Virus record (IMG/VR): IMGVR_UViG_3300032288_001775
Coordinates: 1 to 35,498 of that record
DNA from: a virus
Direction: 5' to 3' (one strand)
Length of the DNA stretch: 35,498 nt
Part shown: in pieces, positions 3,891 through 14,565 of the stretch
Position numbering within the stretch: the first letter of the stretch is position 1
Layout: every line of letters starts with the position of its first letter
Made by a program: the position numbers and the translations under genes
The notes under the pieces: generated by a model
The model's database searches: none
Seen by the model: the letters and a program-made list of their open reading frames with translations, nothing else
Told to the model about the DNA's origin: nothing

Positions 3891-4153
3891 ACGTAATCCT
3901 TTACTAGTATCTCTTGAATAATTATATTTCTTTTACGCCTAATACTTCTGCGTTCCATTGGGGTAGTCCCACCCCACATGCCATAAGCTTCGTGCCTTAC
4001 AGCCCATTCCAGACATTCATTCTTAACCACGCAACTGCCACATATCTTGCGTGAGTATGTATATATATCAGTACCACTTCCTCCTTCTTCTGGAAAGAAG
4101 AACTCAATACCAATCTCTCTACACAACCCCCTGGTCAAGTCTGGAAATTTCAT
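3887..4153 (-). CDS. WhiB-family transcriptional regulator
   Basis: The product is 88 aa. It has the four iron-sulfur ligands Cys11 and Cys38-x2-Cys41-x5-Cys47, the conserved GMWGG turn at 58-62, and a basic tail (ERRSIRRKRN) that binds DNA in this family. WhiB proteins are restricted to Actinobacteria and their phages and usually act with the main sigma factor, so this gene is the strongest host clue in the window. The ATG at 4153 has a good AAAGGGA site. It overlaps the upstream gene by 35 bases. Phage WhiB proteins can compete with host WhiB regulators; whether this one activates or represses cannot be seen. Confidence 0.93.
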   Translation of the reverse strand: MKFPDLTRGLCREIGIEFFFPEEGGSGTDIYTYSRKICGSCVVKNECLEWAVRHEAYGMWGGTTPMERRSIRRKRNIIIQEILVKDYV

Positions 4154-9343: not shown

Positions 9344-9859
9344 CTACTTCTTATTAGTTGGACATTCTGGACAGCAGCAATGATGGTGTGGTTTGATAAC
9401 TACTGCAGGTTTTTTATCTGGCAATGGTTTTATTACAGCTTTAATTTGGTTAACCAACTTAGGTTGATTCATCCACCAGAACCAAGGACTAGTATCGTCA
9501 CCAAAACCATCGTTAATAGAAATGTGTAAATGTTTTGTGTGCGGGTTGCTACCAGTATAAGCGCGATTTCCAAGACGAGCTTTGTCTTTTGACCAAATCT
9601 TCTTGTTGAAAATAAGGTACTTAACTCGCTTATCTTCTTTAAGTTTTTCGAATATGTCACTACAATCGACCCCGCTATCAGGGTCATGGGTGAGGTCGAC
9701 TGCTAGCCCAGTATTGTGGTCCGAAGTCGGACTCGCCTTGAGGTGAGCAGCACTGGGCAGGAGCCCATCGCTTGCCTTCTTGCGTTTCGGTGCTAATGCC
9801 GTCGCTTGACGCAGCACAGCAATAGCAGCAGGCGTGGCTTTCTTGGTTACAGGTTTCAT
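9344..9859 (-). CDS. Endolysin, M15-type peptidase, with His/Cys-rich tail
   Basis: The product is 171 aa. SDHNTGLAVDLTHD (His48, Asp55) and HTKHLHIS (His112) supply the zinc-ligand pattern of M15/LAS peptidases, which cut peptide bonds in peptidoglycan. The C-terminus carries PHHHCCCPEC near 157-166, an unusual metal-binding-like cluster and not a known wall-binding domain. There is no signal peptide, so export through the adjacent holin-like proteins is expected. It lies directly after two small membrane-protein genes, a standard lysis cassette. Confidence 0.82.
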   Translation of the reverse strand: MKPVTKKATPAAIAVLRQATALAPKRKKASDGLLPSAAHLKASPTSDHNTGLAVDLTHDPDSGVDCSDIFEKLKEDKRVKYLIFNKKIWSKDKARLGNRAYTGSNPHTKHLHISINDGFGDDTSPWFWWMNQPKLVNQIKAVIKPLPDKKPAVVIKPHHHCCCPECPTNKK

Positions 9860-9864
9860 TCATT

Positions 9865-10059
9865 TCACTTTCCTGCTATGAGTTCAAATAAACTGTCAAC
9901 GCGCTTCTCTAATCTATCGATGGAGTCACGCATACTTGTGCCAGAATTCGGCTTGAGTTCAGCAAGGTAGTGCTTGACCAACCAACGAACTGAGCCAGCA
10001 AAGCTGGCGACTATTGTGGTAACCGCTACCGCGATACCAGCCCATTCGTTGGTGCTCAT
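9865..10059 (-). CDS. Small membrane protein, holin-like, 64 aa
   Basis: One hydrophobic segment near the N-terminus (WAGIAVAVTTIVASFAGSV, residues 6-24) is followed by a charged amphipathic helix (RDSIDRLEKRVDSLFELI). The single membrane span with a coiled tail resembles phage holin-accessory or antiholin proteins found beside endolysins. The gene overlaps the upstream holin-like gene by one base and precedes the endolysin by a few bases. A second holin or a regulator of lysis timing is inferred. Confidence 0.65.
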   Translation of the reverse strand: MSTNEWAGIAVAVTTIVASFAGSVRWLVKHYLAELKPNSGTSMRDSIDRLEKRVDSLFELIAGK

Positions 10060-10268
10060 TATTCTGTCTTACCGAACGCTGAATCTGATGTATCTAAAGC
10101 GCGGAGCACGACGGGCAGCACTGCCACGACTCCTGCTGTGAAGATAGCCTTGGCTCCCGCTGCATCAAGAGTGAAGATATCCCCACCAGTAGCAGTAAAG
10201 GCAGCGAGGCAAGCGCCAATAAAATGGCGCACATAGCTTTTAATAGCCGACACGGTTTTTTCATTCAT
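10059..10268 (-). CDS. Holin-like protein, 69 aa
   Basis: The product has a moderately hydrophobic region at about 14-27 and a clear one at 41-57 (AIFTAGVVAVLPVVLRAL), then ends in LDTSDSAFGKTE. The pattern of two membrane helices followed by a D-x-x-D-SAFG tail is common in small actinophage holins. It opens the lysis cassette (holin-like, second membrane protein, endolysin). Its start faces a divergent rightward gene about 40 bases away. Confidence 0.7.
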   Translation of the reverse strand: MNEKTVSAIKSYVRHFIGACLAAFTATGGDIFTLDAAGAKAIFTAGVVAVLPVVLRALDTSDSAFGKTE

Positions 10269-10292
10269 TTGTTTCTCCTTATTTATACTTTG

Positions 10293-10301
10293 TGGTACAC
10301 T
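10293..10301 (+). promoter_or_regulatory. Extended -10 promoter for a leaderless gene
   Basis: TGGTACACT matches the extended -10 form (TGN plus a TANNNT hexamer). It ends six bases before the ATG at 10308, which puts the expected transcription start at or next to the A of the ATG. No ribosome-binding site precedes that ATG. Leaderless genes of this layout are common in Actinobacteria. The -35 is weak. Confidence 0.6.
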
Positions 10302-10307
10302 GTCACC

Positions 10308-11027
10308 ATGGACAAAAAAATTACATTTATTGCTAAAGACAAATACTCATACGATTTGTGTGAGCGACCATTCCCAGCATTTCAAGCCTTACCTAAGTGG
10401 CATAGAGATATGGTTCCCTATCAAATATCACCAGATAATCCAGATGGTAAAAAGTTTATTGTTGAAGGTAAAATATCTAATGCTACATTTAAGAAATGTG
10501 TTCCTATGTTAGACGCTTTAACTTCTGGTTATATTATTCCTTTATGGTCTGATGTTCAGATTAAGCAAACAATCACTGGTCCAAGAATTACTTGGCGCAC
10601 AACACTCGATGTTTTTGAACAACATGGAGAAAACTCTCAACATGTAGAAACTCCGCCAGGTTACACAAATAATGTATTTAAGTTCATGAACAAGTGGATT
10701 CCAAATACTCCAAGCGGTTATTCGGTTTTGGTTTTGCCTCCAGTTGGTTATAGGAATTTACCTTTTAAGGCTATCGAGGCTGTTCTTGATAGTGATAAAG
10801 CAAGTCTTGAACCTTTATTTCCAATGTGGATTAAGGAAGGCTTTGAAGGGGTAGTTGAAAAAGGAACACCCTTAGTTCAACTAATCCCCTTCAAAAGAAC
10901 CAATTGGAAAGCCGAGTTTGATTACTACGCCGAAGGCGAGCATAAGCTCCTAGAAGATAAAACTTTTAATTCAACCTTAGTTAATCATTACATAAAAAAC
11001 TTTTGGTCTAAAAAGTCTTATCGTTAA
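10308..11027 (+). CDS. Conserved phage protein of unknown function (DUF6065-like), against the late operon
   Basis: The product is 239 aa. Its segments CERPFPAFQALPKWHRDM, KKCVPMLDALTSGYIIPL, NTPSGYSVLVLPPVGY, FPMWIKEGFEGVVEKGTPLVQLIPFKR and NWKAEF resemble a phage protein family seen widely in aquatic phages, which I remember as DUF6065. Its function is not known. It is soluble with no signal peptide. The ATG at 10308 is preferred because an extended -10 promoter sits just upstream. It is the only sizeable rightward gene within the leftward late operon, so it behaves like a moron with its own expression. Its stop shares bases with the stop of the opposing gene (TTAA). Confidence 0.72.
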   Translation: MDKKITFIAKDKYSYDLCERPFPAFQALPKWHRDMVPYQISPDNPDGKKFIVEGKISNATFKKCVPMLDALTSGYIIPLWSDVQIKQTITGPRITWRTTLDVFEQHGENSQHVETPPGYTNNVFKFMNKWIPNTPSGYSVLVLPPVGYRNLPFKAIEAVLDSDKASLEPLFPMWIKEGFEGVVEKGTPLVQLIPFKRTNWKAEFDYYAEGEHKLLEDKTFNSTLVNHYIKNFWSKKSYR

Positions 11028-11356
11028 GCGTTCCAACTATCTATGATGGATTGGATATATTGCCAATTCCATTCGTAACGCGGGACAATTTCAAGATTGA
11101 TTACATCCCATCCTGCTGCTATTGTTTTTGGCAAATCATCAGGATGTGGTGATGTAACTATATGTTCTGGTCGCCAAGCAACTACTGAAGGTAATCCAGA
11201 AACTTTTACATTCAAGAAGTTAAGCAATGTGTTTCTCATTGCTTCTGTATTACTATCCCAACCAAATGGAACTGTAATTACATTATCTGGTTTATTAGCA
11301 ATAAGGTTATCTGCATCACCATAAATATTATGGAATAAGTATACTTGTGTACTCAT
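11024..11356 (-). CDS. Hypothetical protein following a tail-fibre gene, 110 aa
   Basis: The product is mixed alpha/beta: MSTQVYLFHNIYGDADNLI, then PDNVITVPFGWDSN, GLPSVVAWRPEHIV and a Trp-rich C-terminal helix (YEWNWQYIQSIIDSWNA). Its ATG directly follows the fibre gene stop. Small genes in this position often encode fibre-assembly chaperones, so that role is possible, but no known chaperone motif is visible. The 3' end meets the opposing rightward gene with a shared TTAA. Confidence 0.6.
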   Translation of the reverse strand: MSTQVYLFHNIYGDADNLIANKPDNVITVPFGWDSNTEAMRNTLLNFLNVKVSGLPSVVAWRPEHIVTSPHPDDLPKTIAAGWDVINLEIVPRYEWNWQYIQSIIDSWNA

Positions 11357-12610
11357 TTAGACAACTACCAACTTTCTTGCAGTTCCTGCGCCACCGCTTG
11401 GTTGTGAGCCATAAATACCATATCCAGCTCCACCTGCAGCAGAAGGAGTAAAAGATGAACTATCTGCAGGAGCAAGAATTGTTAATGAACCACCACCTGT
11501 TGCACCACCAGGTCGCTCGCTTGCACTTGCTCCAGCAACGCCCTTGGCTTCAATAGCACCAGAACCTCTTAATGTTCCTTCAATAATTACAATCAATACT
11601 CCGCCAGTTCCATTGGGACCAGCATTTTCGCCACCAGTACCACCATTGTTACCACCACCACCAGATGAAGGGTTTGCGGTTGGATAAGGTCCCCCAGCAC
11701 CAAGAGCGTTTCCACCAGCACCGCCGTTAGCAGTTGCAGCAGTTCCACCAATATTAGTAAGACCGCTATAAGTGCGACCGCCACCACCGCCTGAGCCACC
11801 AGAAAATGATGTACCAGCAGCACCGTAACCAAAAGTAGTGTTATCGTTTGTACCTGAGCCACCACCGCCAGTTCCACCTGCTGTGCCAGCAGAACCTGGT
11901 TGAGATGCACTATATGAAGTCGTACCGCCCGCACCGCCATCGGATGGAACTTGTGGATTAGTTACAGATGAGAATGTGCCATCAACAATACGGATAGCAC
12001 CTTTAGTAGTTGCACCACCTGATACGCCAGTACCATTGTGGTTTGCTCCCTTGCCAGTCATTGACAAAGTTCCGCTAACTGTTAAATCTCCAGCTACATA
12101 TAGCACCGTAAATAGTTTGCGGTTACTTGGCTGGAAAGTTACTCCACTGTTGATTGTCATATCTCCTTTAATAACAATCCAAGCAGAACGAGTATCTTCT
12201 GTGGATGTAAACCAATCAGAATTTGTAAACGAAGTAACTGTTTGACTTCCTGATTTAATAGTATAATCGTAAGAACCAAGAGATACGCTATTGATTGTCA
12301 TTGTTCCACCTGCGGTTGGTGCAGATGTGGATGGAGTTGAGTTAGCCATACCTTTAGCAATAACAGCTATTGAACCAGCGCTAATATTTCCAGCAGAAAA
12401 TGTAATAGCGCTATCAGCCCAAGGCATTTTTATTGCAGCAGCAGTGCCGTCAAGATTCTTCCAAGCGCTTCCTGTCCAAATTTCTGGTTTGCCAGATGTA
12501 GAATTAAATCCAATATATCCAGCAGCAAGACCAGATGTTGATGGTCTTGTATCTGTTGTTTGTATTGGATACTCTCCAAAATTTCTATAAGGGTATATAG
12601 TGTTTGCCAT
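11357..12610 (-). CDS. Glycine-rich tail fibre / adhesin
   Basis: The product is 417 aa. The N-terminal 60 residues (MANTIYPYRNFGEYPIQTTD, then AAGYIGFNSTSGKPEIWTGSAW) form the fibre-attachment or short strand-repeat module often seen in phage tail fibres. Residues of about 100-210 are beta-rich. About 210-400 is very Gly-rich with GGTGGGGSG, SGGGGG and GGGGNNGGTGG blocks, like the polyglycine-sandwich tips of T4 gp38-type adhesins and glycine-rich bacterial surface domains. It probably contacts the host receptor. It overlaps the next virion gene by one base (TAATG). Confidence 0.72.
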   Translation of the reverse strand: MANTIYPYRNFGEYPIQTTDTRPSTSGLAAGYIGFNSTSGKPEIWTGSAWKNLDGTAAAIKMPWADSAITFSAGNISAGSIAVIAKGMANSTPSTSAPTAGGTMTINSVSLGSYDYTIKSGSQTVTSFTNSDWFTSTEDTRSAWIVIKGDMTINSGVTFQPSNRKLFTVLYVAGDLTVSGTLSMTGKGANHNGTGVSGGATTKGAIRIVDGTFSSVTNPQVPSDGGAGGTTSYSASQPGSAGTAGGTGGGGSGTNDNTTFGYGAAGTSFSGGSGGGGGRTYSGLTNIGGTAATANGGAGGNALGAGGPYPTANPSSGGGGNNGGTGGENAGPNGTGGVLIVIIEGTLRGSGAIEAKGVAGASASERPGGATGGGSLTILAPADSSSFTPSAAGGAGYGIYGSQPSGGAGTARKLVVV

Positions 12611-12942: not shown

Positions 12943-14565
12943 TTAGATATATGCGCCCATCAAGGTCATTACCTCAACGGATTGTGTGTCTATTATTAGT
13001 GTTCCCCAGGAAGCAGCGCTTCCATCTGTTGTTAAATATTTTCCATTATGTCCAGACTGACTTGGCAATACATATACACTTGATGTGTCTAAATTTATAG
13101 TTGCACTACCACTTGTTGCCCCACCCGACAATCCTGTGCCAGCTACTACTGCTGTTATGTCGCCTGATGATGTGAACACTTGCCAAGATGATGTTCCACC
13201 GTTCCAGACATACATATTGTAGTCAGTAGTGTTGTAATAAATAACACCATCGATTAATGGGTTTCCATCATTGTCGGTAGTTGGAGGAGTAGCCTTTGCT
13301 CCGAGGTAACGGTCATCAAACAACTCATAAGATGCAGCAGCGCTAGATGCAGAGGTTGCAGCAGATGCAGCGCTTGTCGCTGCAGCGGATGCACTATTGG
13401 CAGATGCTGTAGCAGAGTTTGCTGCACTTGTAGCAGATGTTGCTGCAGCCGTTGCAGAAGCAGCAGCCGATGTTGCACTTGTGGCAGCAGCAGTTGCACT
13501 TGCAGCAGCGCTTGTAGCGCTGGTCGCAGCAGATGTTTGTGATGTCAAGGCACTTGATGCTGATGTCGCAGCAGAACTTGCACTAGTAGCAGCAGCGGTT
13601 TCACTTGATGCTGCAGCGGTAGCATATCCAGCAATAGAAGCAACAGAAGCAGCAGCGGTAGTTGCACTATTGGCTGCGGAAGTTGCAGAGGTTGCAGCAG
13701 CGGTAGCGCTTGCTGCAGCCGAAGTTGCTGATGTAGCAGCAGATGTCTGGCTAGTTAAAGCAGATGATGCACTGGTTGCTGCTGCAGTAGCAGATGCTGC
13801 TGCAGAGGTAGCAGATGTGGCTGCTGAAGTTTGAGATGTAAGAGCAGATGATGCAGATGTAGCAGCGGATGTTGCCGATGTAGCAGCGCTAGTGGCTGAT
13901 GTGGCAGCAGCAGTTGCTGAGTTTGCAGCAGAGGTTGCATATGATGCAATCGTTGCAACCGAGTTGGCAGCAGATGTAGCCGACGTTGCTGCAGATGCAG
14001 CAGAGGTAGCTGCTGCAGTTGCACTATTAGAAGCAGAGGTAGCAGAAGTTGCAGCAGCAGCTACTTGAGCGTCAGCGAAGTCTTTACGAACAGCATCGCT
14101 AGATGATGTTGGTGTTGCAAGATTTGTAATCTTATATCCACCAGCATCAAGAATAGAACCAAGGGTTGCTGTAGTTAGAGTTTTACCAGTAAGCGTTTGT
14201 GCTCCACCAGTTCCTACAATATCTCCAGTTACTCCGTGTGCATTAGTTGCTGCTTCATGAGAACGGAAGTCAGAGAAGTCCAATGCAGAAACACCGTGTT
14301 CTACAATTGCGCCAACTGAGTGTGCCTTGGAGCTTGTGCCATCAACGCCACGAGTTACCGTATATGCAGTACCAACGAGGGCGGTTACCGTTACGATTTC
14401 TTCGTTAGCGGTATCCTTTTCAAGAATAAGTGTGAATGGATACTGCGATGGTAAACCAGAAGCAGCAGCCAGCGACAAGCTTGTGCTTGCCGTGCTAGCG
14501 TCAATAGCGCTAGACAGTGTTGTCTTAGCAGCGGTTGAGCTATAATAACGTGCAATTGTTGGCAT
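12943..14565 (-). CDS. Tail fibre with long Ala/Ser/Thr repeat shaft
   Basis: The product is 540 aa. Residues 1-165 are globular, with SGLPSQYPFTLILEKDTANEEIVTVTA and TVTRGVDGTSSKAH, a module common at the start of actinophage fibres. A shaft of about 235 residues follows, almost only A, S and T in seven-residue-like ASAATSATSA units broken by VASIAGYAT-type breaks. This is probably a trimeric coiled shaft like that of lambda Stf-type fibres. The C-terminal 140 residues (KATPPTTDNDGNPLIDGVIYYN, then YNMYVWNGGTSSW) are the distal part. The ATG has GAGGT upstream. Confidence 0.8.
   Translation of the reverse strand: MPTIARYYSSTAAKTTLSSAIDASTASTSLSLAAASGLPSQYPFTLILEKDTANEEIVTVTALVGTAYTVTRGVDGTSSKAHSVGAIVEHGVSALDFSDFRSHEAATNAHGVTGDIVGTGGAQTLTGKTLTTATLGSILDAGGYKITNLATPTSSSDAVRKDFADAQVAAAATSATSASNSATAAATSAASAATSATSAANSVATIASYATSAANSATAAATSATSAATSATSAATSASSALTSQTSAATSATSAAASATAAATSASSALTSQTSAATSATSAAASATAAATSATSAANSATTAAASVASIAGYATAAASSETAAATSASSAATSASSALTSQTSAATSATSAAASATAAATSATSAAASATAAATSATSAANSATASANSASAAATSAASAATSASSAAASYELFDDRYLGAKATPPTTDNDGNPLIDGVIYYNTTDYNMYVWNGGTSSWQVFTSSGDITAVVAGTGLSGGATSGSATINLDTSSVYVLPSQSGHNGKYLTTDGSAASWGTLIIDTQSVEVMTLMGAYI
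13335..14060 (-). repeat. Coding repeat of the fibre shaft
   Basis: This is a run of GCA/GCT/TCT/ACT-type codons in imperfect 21-base-like units encoding the Ala/Ser/Thr shaft. The antisense strand shows an open Ala/Val-rich frame across it, which is only a by-product of the repeat. Confidence 0.75.

Follow-up and report, generated by a model that had tools for sequence, protein, structure and literature searches.

A gene that points against its neighbours inside the late operon of a phage raises two questions: how it is expressed, and what its product does. The window (the whole stretch of viral DNA analysed here, 35,498 nt) carries such a gene, which the original prediction described as DUF6065-like, with an apparent leaderless extended -10 promoter from which it may be expressed independently. 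Our reading, held at a probability of roughly 0.7, is that it is a moron-like cargo cassette with a self-sufficient promoter of this type and a dUTPase-like product whose active site is altered.

Gene layout and the element at the start codon

The locus consists of the following features.

10059-10268, minus strand: divergent 69-aa gene, by eye a small membrane protein and holin-like; its ribosome-binding site adjoins the cassette
10279-10288, no strand: edge of the putatively acquired DNA; blastn matches of 28/80 loci begin inside it
10293-10301, plus strand: extended -10 element TGGTACACT (TGnTAnnnT), assigned from sequence; recurs at equal spacing in 14/46 representatives
10302-10307, plus strand: six-base gap GTCACC, a distance at which transcription is predicted to begin on the ATG; spacing as in the TANNNT leaderless genes of two studies (PMC3160421, PMC3898074)
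10308-11027, plus strand: cargo gene encoding 239 aa; member of phrog_7084, distantly related to DUF6065, with a predicted dUTPase-like fold
11024-11356, minus strand: convergent 110-aa gene, AT-rich, no family match

The cargo gene starts with the ATG at 10308-10310 and stops with the TAA at 11025-11027. Its reading frame is open as far as an in-frame ATG at 10224, which was rejected as the start; 10308 was chosen because the homology of relatives begins at the residue encoded there. The neighbouring ORFs counted as genes all lie on the minus strand, opposite to the cargo gene, which bears out the predicted counter-oriented gene with its ATG at 10308. A gap of 39 nt separates it from the divergent ORF, and its stop codon overlaps the convergent ORF. 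It had also been placed between lysis genes and fibres. The fibre side of this placement stands, with tail-fibre PHROGs matched by 12943-14565; on the other side, the lysis label of 9344-10268 is a reading by eye, and 9344-9859 matches a PHROG without known function. GC content is 35.7% in the cargo gene, 35.4% in the 110-aa gene and 45.0% in the window. The 110-aa gene adjoins the cargo gene in the window and in L016, L018, L003 and L020, and neither gene has a family match in NCBIfam or PADLOC.

The first T of TACACT lies at 10296, 12 nt before the start codon, which is the leaderless TAnnnT distance. The prediction that TGGTACACT ends six bases before the ATG was exact, with GTCACC filling the gap. 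Equally, the claimed lack of a ribosome-binding site agrees with the sequence: no Shine-Dalgarno-like match precedes the cargo gene on the plus strand, and the CTCCTT found upstream belongs to the opposite-strand gene, being its ribosome-binding site in reverse complement.

Comparison of upstream sequences in relatives had been suggested as a check. Start codons were compared in 14 viral loci near the window copy and 65 loci from a profile scan (the sets overlap). The 46 representatives are the window, 44 copies left after removal at >93% identity, and L018, which was restored because its upstream sequence differs; the identity filter worked position by position without alignment, and some close pairs stay. 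L059 and L075 were left out for want of a usable start, and L037, truncated upstream, was scored as lacking the element. In 14 of the 46 copies, exactly six nt separate TGnTAnnnT from the start, compared with a mean of 0.13 and a maximum of 3 in 1000 dinucleotide shuffles, and TAnnnT alone at this spacing occurs in 18/46 versus 2.1 in shuffles; these counts take copies inside one clade as separate, and such copies are related rather than independent. Before other ORFs of the same loci the extended element has this spacing in 16 of 449 cases (Fisher p = 2.4e-8 for the comparison with the cargo copies, kinship ignored). Flanking genes vary among the copies that share the element, so its conservation is not merely that of a whole region. 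The promoter bases are thus kept alongside the gene in close relatives, whose sequences support the claim of a recurrent extended -10 with leaderless spacing. Leaderless spacing is not universal, even among close relatives: seven of the 46 have an extended -10 followed by a leader of 14-38 nt and a Shine-Dalgarno-like site.

Probable acquisition, orientation and proposed mode of expression

Leaderless genes with a TANNNT element are described for actinobacteria, and the host was assessed from marker genes of the window. A WhiB-family match (PF02467, E 1.2e-16), a mark of actinophages, lies at 3944-4135 on the minus strand, and WhiB is present in 12 of 21 records searched. A sigma-factor-like protein is encoded at 229-867 on the minus strand (phrog_354, E 6.3e-17), as in the cultured Planktophila phages; their isolation paper gives WhiB, a sigma-70 factor and 44.7-44.8% GC (PMC10202952). 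For the terminase and capsid, the nearest matches are in OX376641 (described as LanE43-AprF5) and OX376640, and then in Streptomyces phages; Bacillus phages are also among the capsid matches. WhiB in the window, together with a terminase and a capsid whose closest matches come from cultured 'Ca. Planktophila' phages, makes a freshwater actinobacterium the very likely host, and the actinobacterial setting assumed earlier is supported.

The cargo gene resembles the actinobacterial leaderless genes, as presented in the two studies (PMC3160421, PMC3898074), in having the first T of TAnnnT about 12 nt before the start and no Shine-Dalgarno site. It differs in standing in a phage cassette and in the frequency of the TGn extension, which is found in 17 of the 28 leaderless-spaced copies (11 lack it); in M. 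tuberculosis only 7% of TANNNT promoters are reported to have it (PMC3898074).

Phage morons are accessory genes with their own promoter and deviating composition that are missing from most relatives. The cargo gene is alike in its putative own promoter, its composition and its absence from most relatives; it differs in that a simple scan (9800-11500; weak evidence) found no terminator downstream of it or on the minus strand, and in that one edge has been determined. Among the loci of the adjacent peptidase-like family (the best 80 of at least 587), one, L221, has the cargo gene. For 28 of these 80 loci, L221 not among them, blastn similarity to the window sets in at 10279-10288, at and just outside the divergent 69-aa gene's ribosome-binding site. 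Since similarity to the gene-less loci begins there, the -10 element falls on the acquired side of the junction. The promoter part of the claim that the gene is independently expressed is therefore upheld, by sequence only. In the gene-less relatives the fibre genes end differently. The 110-aa gene has no copy in the 80 loci and may therefore have arrived together with the cargo gene; with one edge seen, genes at the fibre end next to the cargo gene may have been exchanged along with it. In L078 and L221 the cargo gene comes after the last fibre-type gene and is read the same way as the operon, whereas in the window it is opposed, so both directions are found in the same kind of place. Taken as a whole, the cargo gene appears to be a moron-like cassette.

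Orientation was compared with the upstream neighbour, which a simple ORF picker called in 45 of the 46 representatives (the plus-strand neighbour of L038 is doubtful). TAnnnT at 6-7 nt occurs in 14/22 copies that oppose this neighbour versus 5/23 co-oriented ones (p = 0.007). A held-out set was made from 54 of 80 profile-match loci with L349 and L221 (56 in total), less nine near-duplicates; of the other 26 loci, 21 are on contigs already used and five are partial or at an edge. In these 47 further, mostly more distant copies, a weak trend in the same direction was obtained (4/10 opposing versus 5/37 co-oriented, p = 0.08), and the full TGnTAnnnT at 6-7 nt showed no trend (1/10 versus 1/37). 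With both sets pooled, TAnnnT is present in 18/32 opposing and 10/60 co-oriented copies (p = 0.0002). A perfect TTGACA -35 was found in 5 of the 11 leaderless copies without TGn versus none of the 17 with it (p = 0.005), a threshold picked after the data were seen; at five of six matches the counts are 7/11 and 4/17 (p = 0.053). The orientation and -35 patterns fit a promoter that works without help from its surroundings.

Comparison of the loci at the DNA level establishes the element, its spacing, its recurrence and one edge of the acquired DNA. In the proposed mechanism, the cassette sits where the fibre genes end, within the late operon and pointing the other way. Host RNA polymerase would read the extended -10 without a -35 and would begin at the ATG, and the leaderless mRNA would be translated directly, with no Shine-Dalgarno site required. 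Expression would then be independent of flanking DNA and probably of late transcription, while late-operon transcription would cross the cargo gene in antisense. Cargo transcripts may extend into 11024-11356, because no terminator was found. This arrangement suggests how a cargo gene could remain expressed in either landing direction, because a leaderless extended -10 promoter can do without a -35 and a ribosome-binding site in the flanking DNA.

Two other accounts of the promoter were weighed. The match could be a chance occurrence in an AT-rich gap, and TGnTAnnnT does occur 50 times in the window (both strands summed); against 14 of 46 copies where 0.13 are expected, this explanation is already contradicted by the relatives and is scarcely credible. 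Transcription could instead start further upstream or depend on a phage sigma factor, in which case TGGTACACT would not be a working promoter. The sigma-like protein encoded in the window would suit such a scheme, as would the relatives that have leaders with a Shine-Dalgarno site. Yet the element keeps a fixed distance from the start while the sequence above it differs or belongs to the divergent gene, and a simple sigma-70 scan gave no site just upstream; we regard this account as unlikely.

Protein family and predicted fold

The cargo protein belongs to a viral family without described function, phrog_7084, whose profile it matches over residues 2-235 (E 1.2e-41) and which is matched by all 45 of 45 alignment members. 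Direct membership of DUF6065 by Pfam was ruled out: PF19541 matches neither the window protein nor any of nine close copies (9/9), and its cut-off is passed by 3 of 10 bacterial homologues scanned. Distant kinship is retained from the label 'DUF6065-like', since the alignment of bacterial DUF6065 proteins matches the phage family at 99.9% in hhalign (E 2.9e-36, 195 columns). The bacterial members are thus homologous to the phage family and share its predicted fold, although the Pfam model misses the window protein. Relatives were found in 49 haloarchaeal virus records and three cyanophage records, with distant ones in bacterial genomes (15 loci), and one viral collection holds at least 580 matching stretches for the family. 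Seventeen neighbouring ORFs are of the same family, which places paralogues close together in several viruses; examples side by side or nearby are L021:5288-6720, L067:3478-4934 and L077:3517-6389. A literature search found no paper on DUF6065, phrog_7084 or PF19541, and a sequence search of solved structures with A2 gave 0 matches.

Predicted structures were compared for the phage and bacterial proteins. The AlphaFold2 model of the window protein has a pLDDT of 88.9, and its best PDB matches are dUTPases and dCTP deaminases (Foldseek best E 0.006; none < 0.001). VIA on this model gave Z 10.2 and an rmsd of 2.8 over 118 residues, with dUTPases in all 50 matches shown. In a viral library the best 12 matches of the model are unnamed or uncharacterised proteins, followed by dUTPases. 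A bacterial DUF6065 protein, modelled separately, matched dUTPases at E 1.5e-4, with Z 10.2 and an rmsd of 3.9 over 125. Both proteins are accordingly predicted by modelling to have a dUTPase-like fold, which is new here. Profile comparison with dUTPases was weak (hhalign 5.8% and 0.7%), one dCTP deaminase piece gave no match to the profile, and the Pfam dUTPase model PF00692 does not match the window protein.

The dUTPase motifs are partly retained. In the weak profile alignment, D161 and Q191 align with residues of motifs III and IV; the motif III Asp is kept (D161) and its Tyr is replaced, and P145 and V146 stand in place of the motif II Arg-Ser. The place of the motif I Asp reads GYII by eye, and the profile alignment falls short of it. 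The glycine-rich C-terminal motif V is absent from the window protein sequence. Invariant across a wide alignment are P29, W31, C64, G74, G137, S139, D163, T187, P188 and P194. The protein is thus like the dUTPase/dCTP deaminase superfamily (PF00692) in predicted fold and in the placement of D161 and Q191, and unlike it in missing the motif II Arg-Ser, motif III Tyr and motif V and in having other invariant residues. A standard dUTPase is unlikely because key dUTPase motifs are missing. The product would most likely bind or convert a pyrimidine nucleotide or a similar ligand.

Two other readings of the product were weighed. In the first, the product would be dUTPase-like in fold but would serve in binding or regulation, its target being a host partner or a signalling nucleotide at an early stage of infection. 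Its altered motifs and own invariant residues are in keeping with such a role, as is a stand-alone cargo gene with its own promoter, and the fold matches include Stl-binding phage dUTPases (Stl being the SaPI repressor); however, the analysis turned up no partner, target or link to defence, nor a PADLOC family match, and we treat this role as possible but tentative. It is rather less probable that the product is an active enzyme of dUTPase or dCTP-deaminase type with unusual residues, supplying dUMP or keeping uracil from phage DNA. That would accord with the modelled fold and the positions of D161 and Q191. The PF00692 dUTPase is missing from 17/17 records searched, but several of the contigs are fragments. 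In halovirus HF1 (L080) and cyanophage S-RIM4 (L081), relatives are also situated close to genes for ribonucleotide reductase. Against activity, the glycine-rich motif V is absent, as are the Arg-Ser of motif II and the Tyr of motif III. Under the preferred reading of a cargo cassette with a dUTPase-like product, a family without known function gains a testable fold, and the phage group has cultured members.

Halogenase genes near relatives in other viruses

Neighbouring genes of relatives were compared with those of the window. Nine of 48 records carry a gene of the tryptophan-halogenase family: cyanophage S-RIM4 and eight phage contigs. A dUTPase-like gene lies within 8 kb in 18 of 80 viral halogenase loci versus 1 of 80 peptidase loci, the latter with shorter flanks; many of the halogenase loci are short, and some of their contigs are nearly identical (L108-L110, L119-L121). 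Of 13 bacterial genomes searched, 8 have halogenase-family matches, and L096 is the single one of the 15 bacterial loci in which the match stands beside the gene, a halogenase-family ORF directly preceding the dUTPase-like gene on the same strand (L096:3386-5576). The window has no halogenase, so a link of its own cargo gene to halogenases is not supported.

A broader and quite speculative view, which we consider improbable as a whole, is that phrog_7084/DUF6065 forms an uncharacterised branch of the dUTPase superfamily in bacterial phages and archaeal viruses. Its members would handle modified pyrimidine nucleotides or another small molecule, partly together with flavin-dependent halogenases, and in actinophages the branch would move as a cassette that brings its own portable, leaderless promoter.

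Halogenase-family genes of about 510-540 aa were seen a few genes from phrog_7084 genes in L067, L054, L066, L072 and L073.
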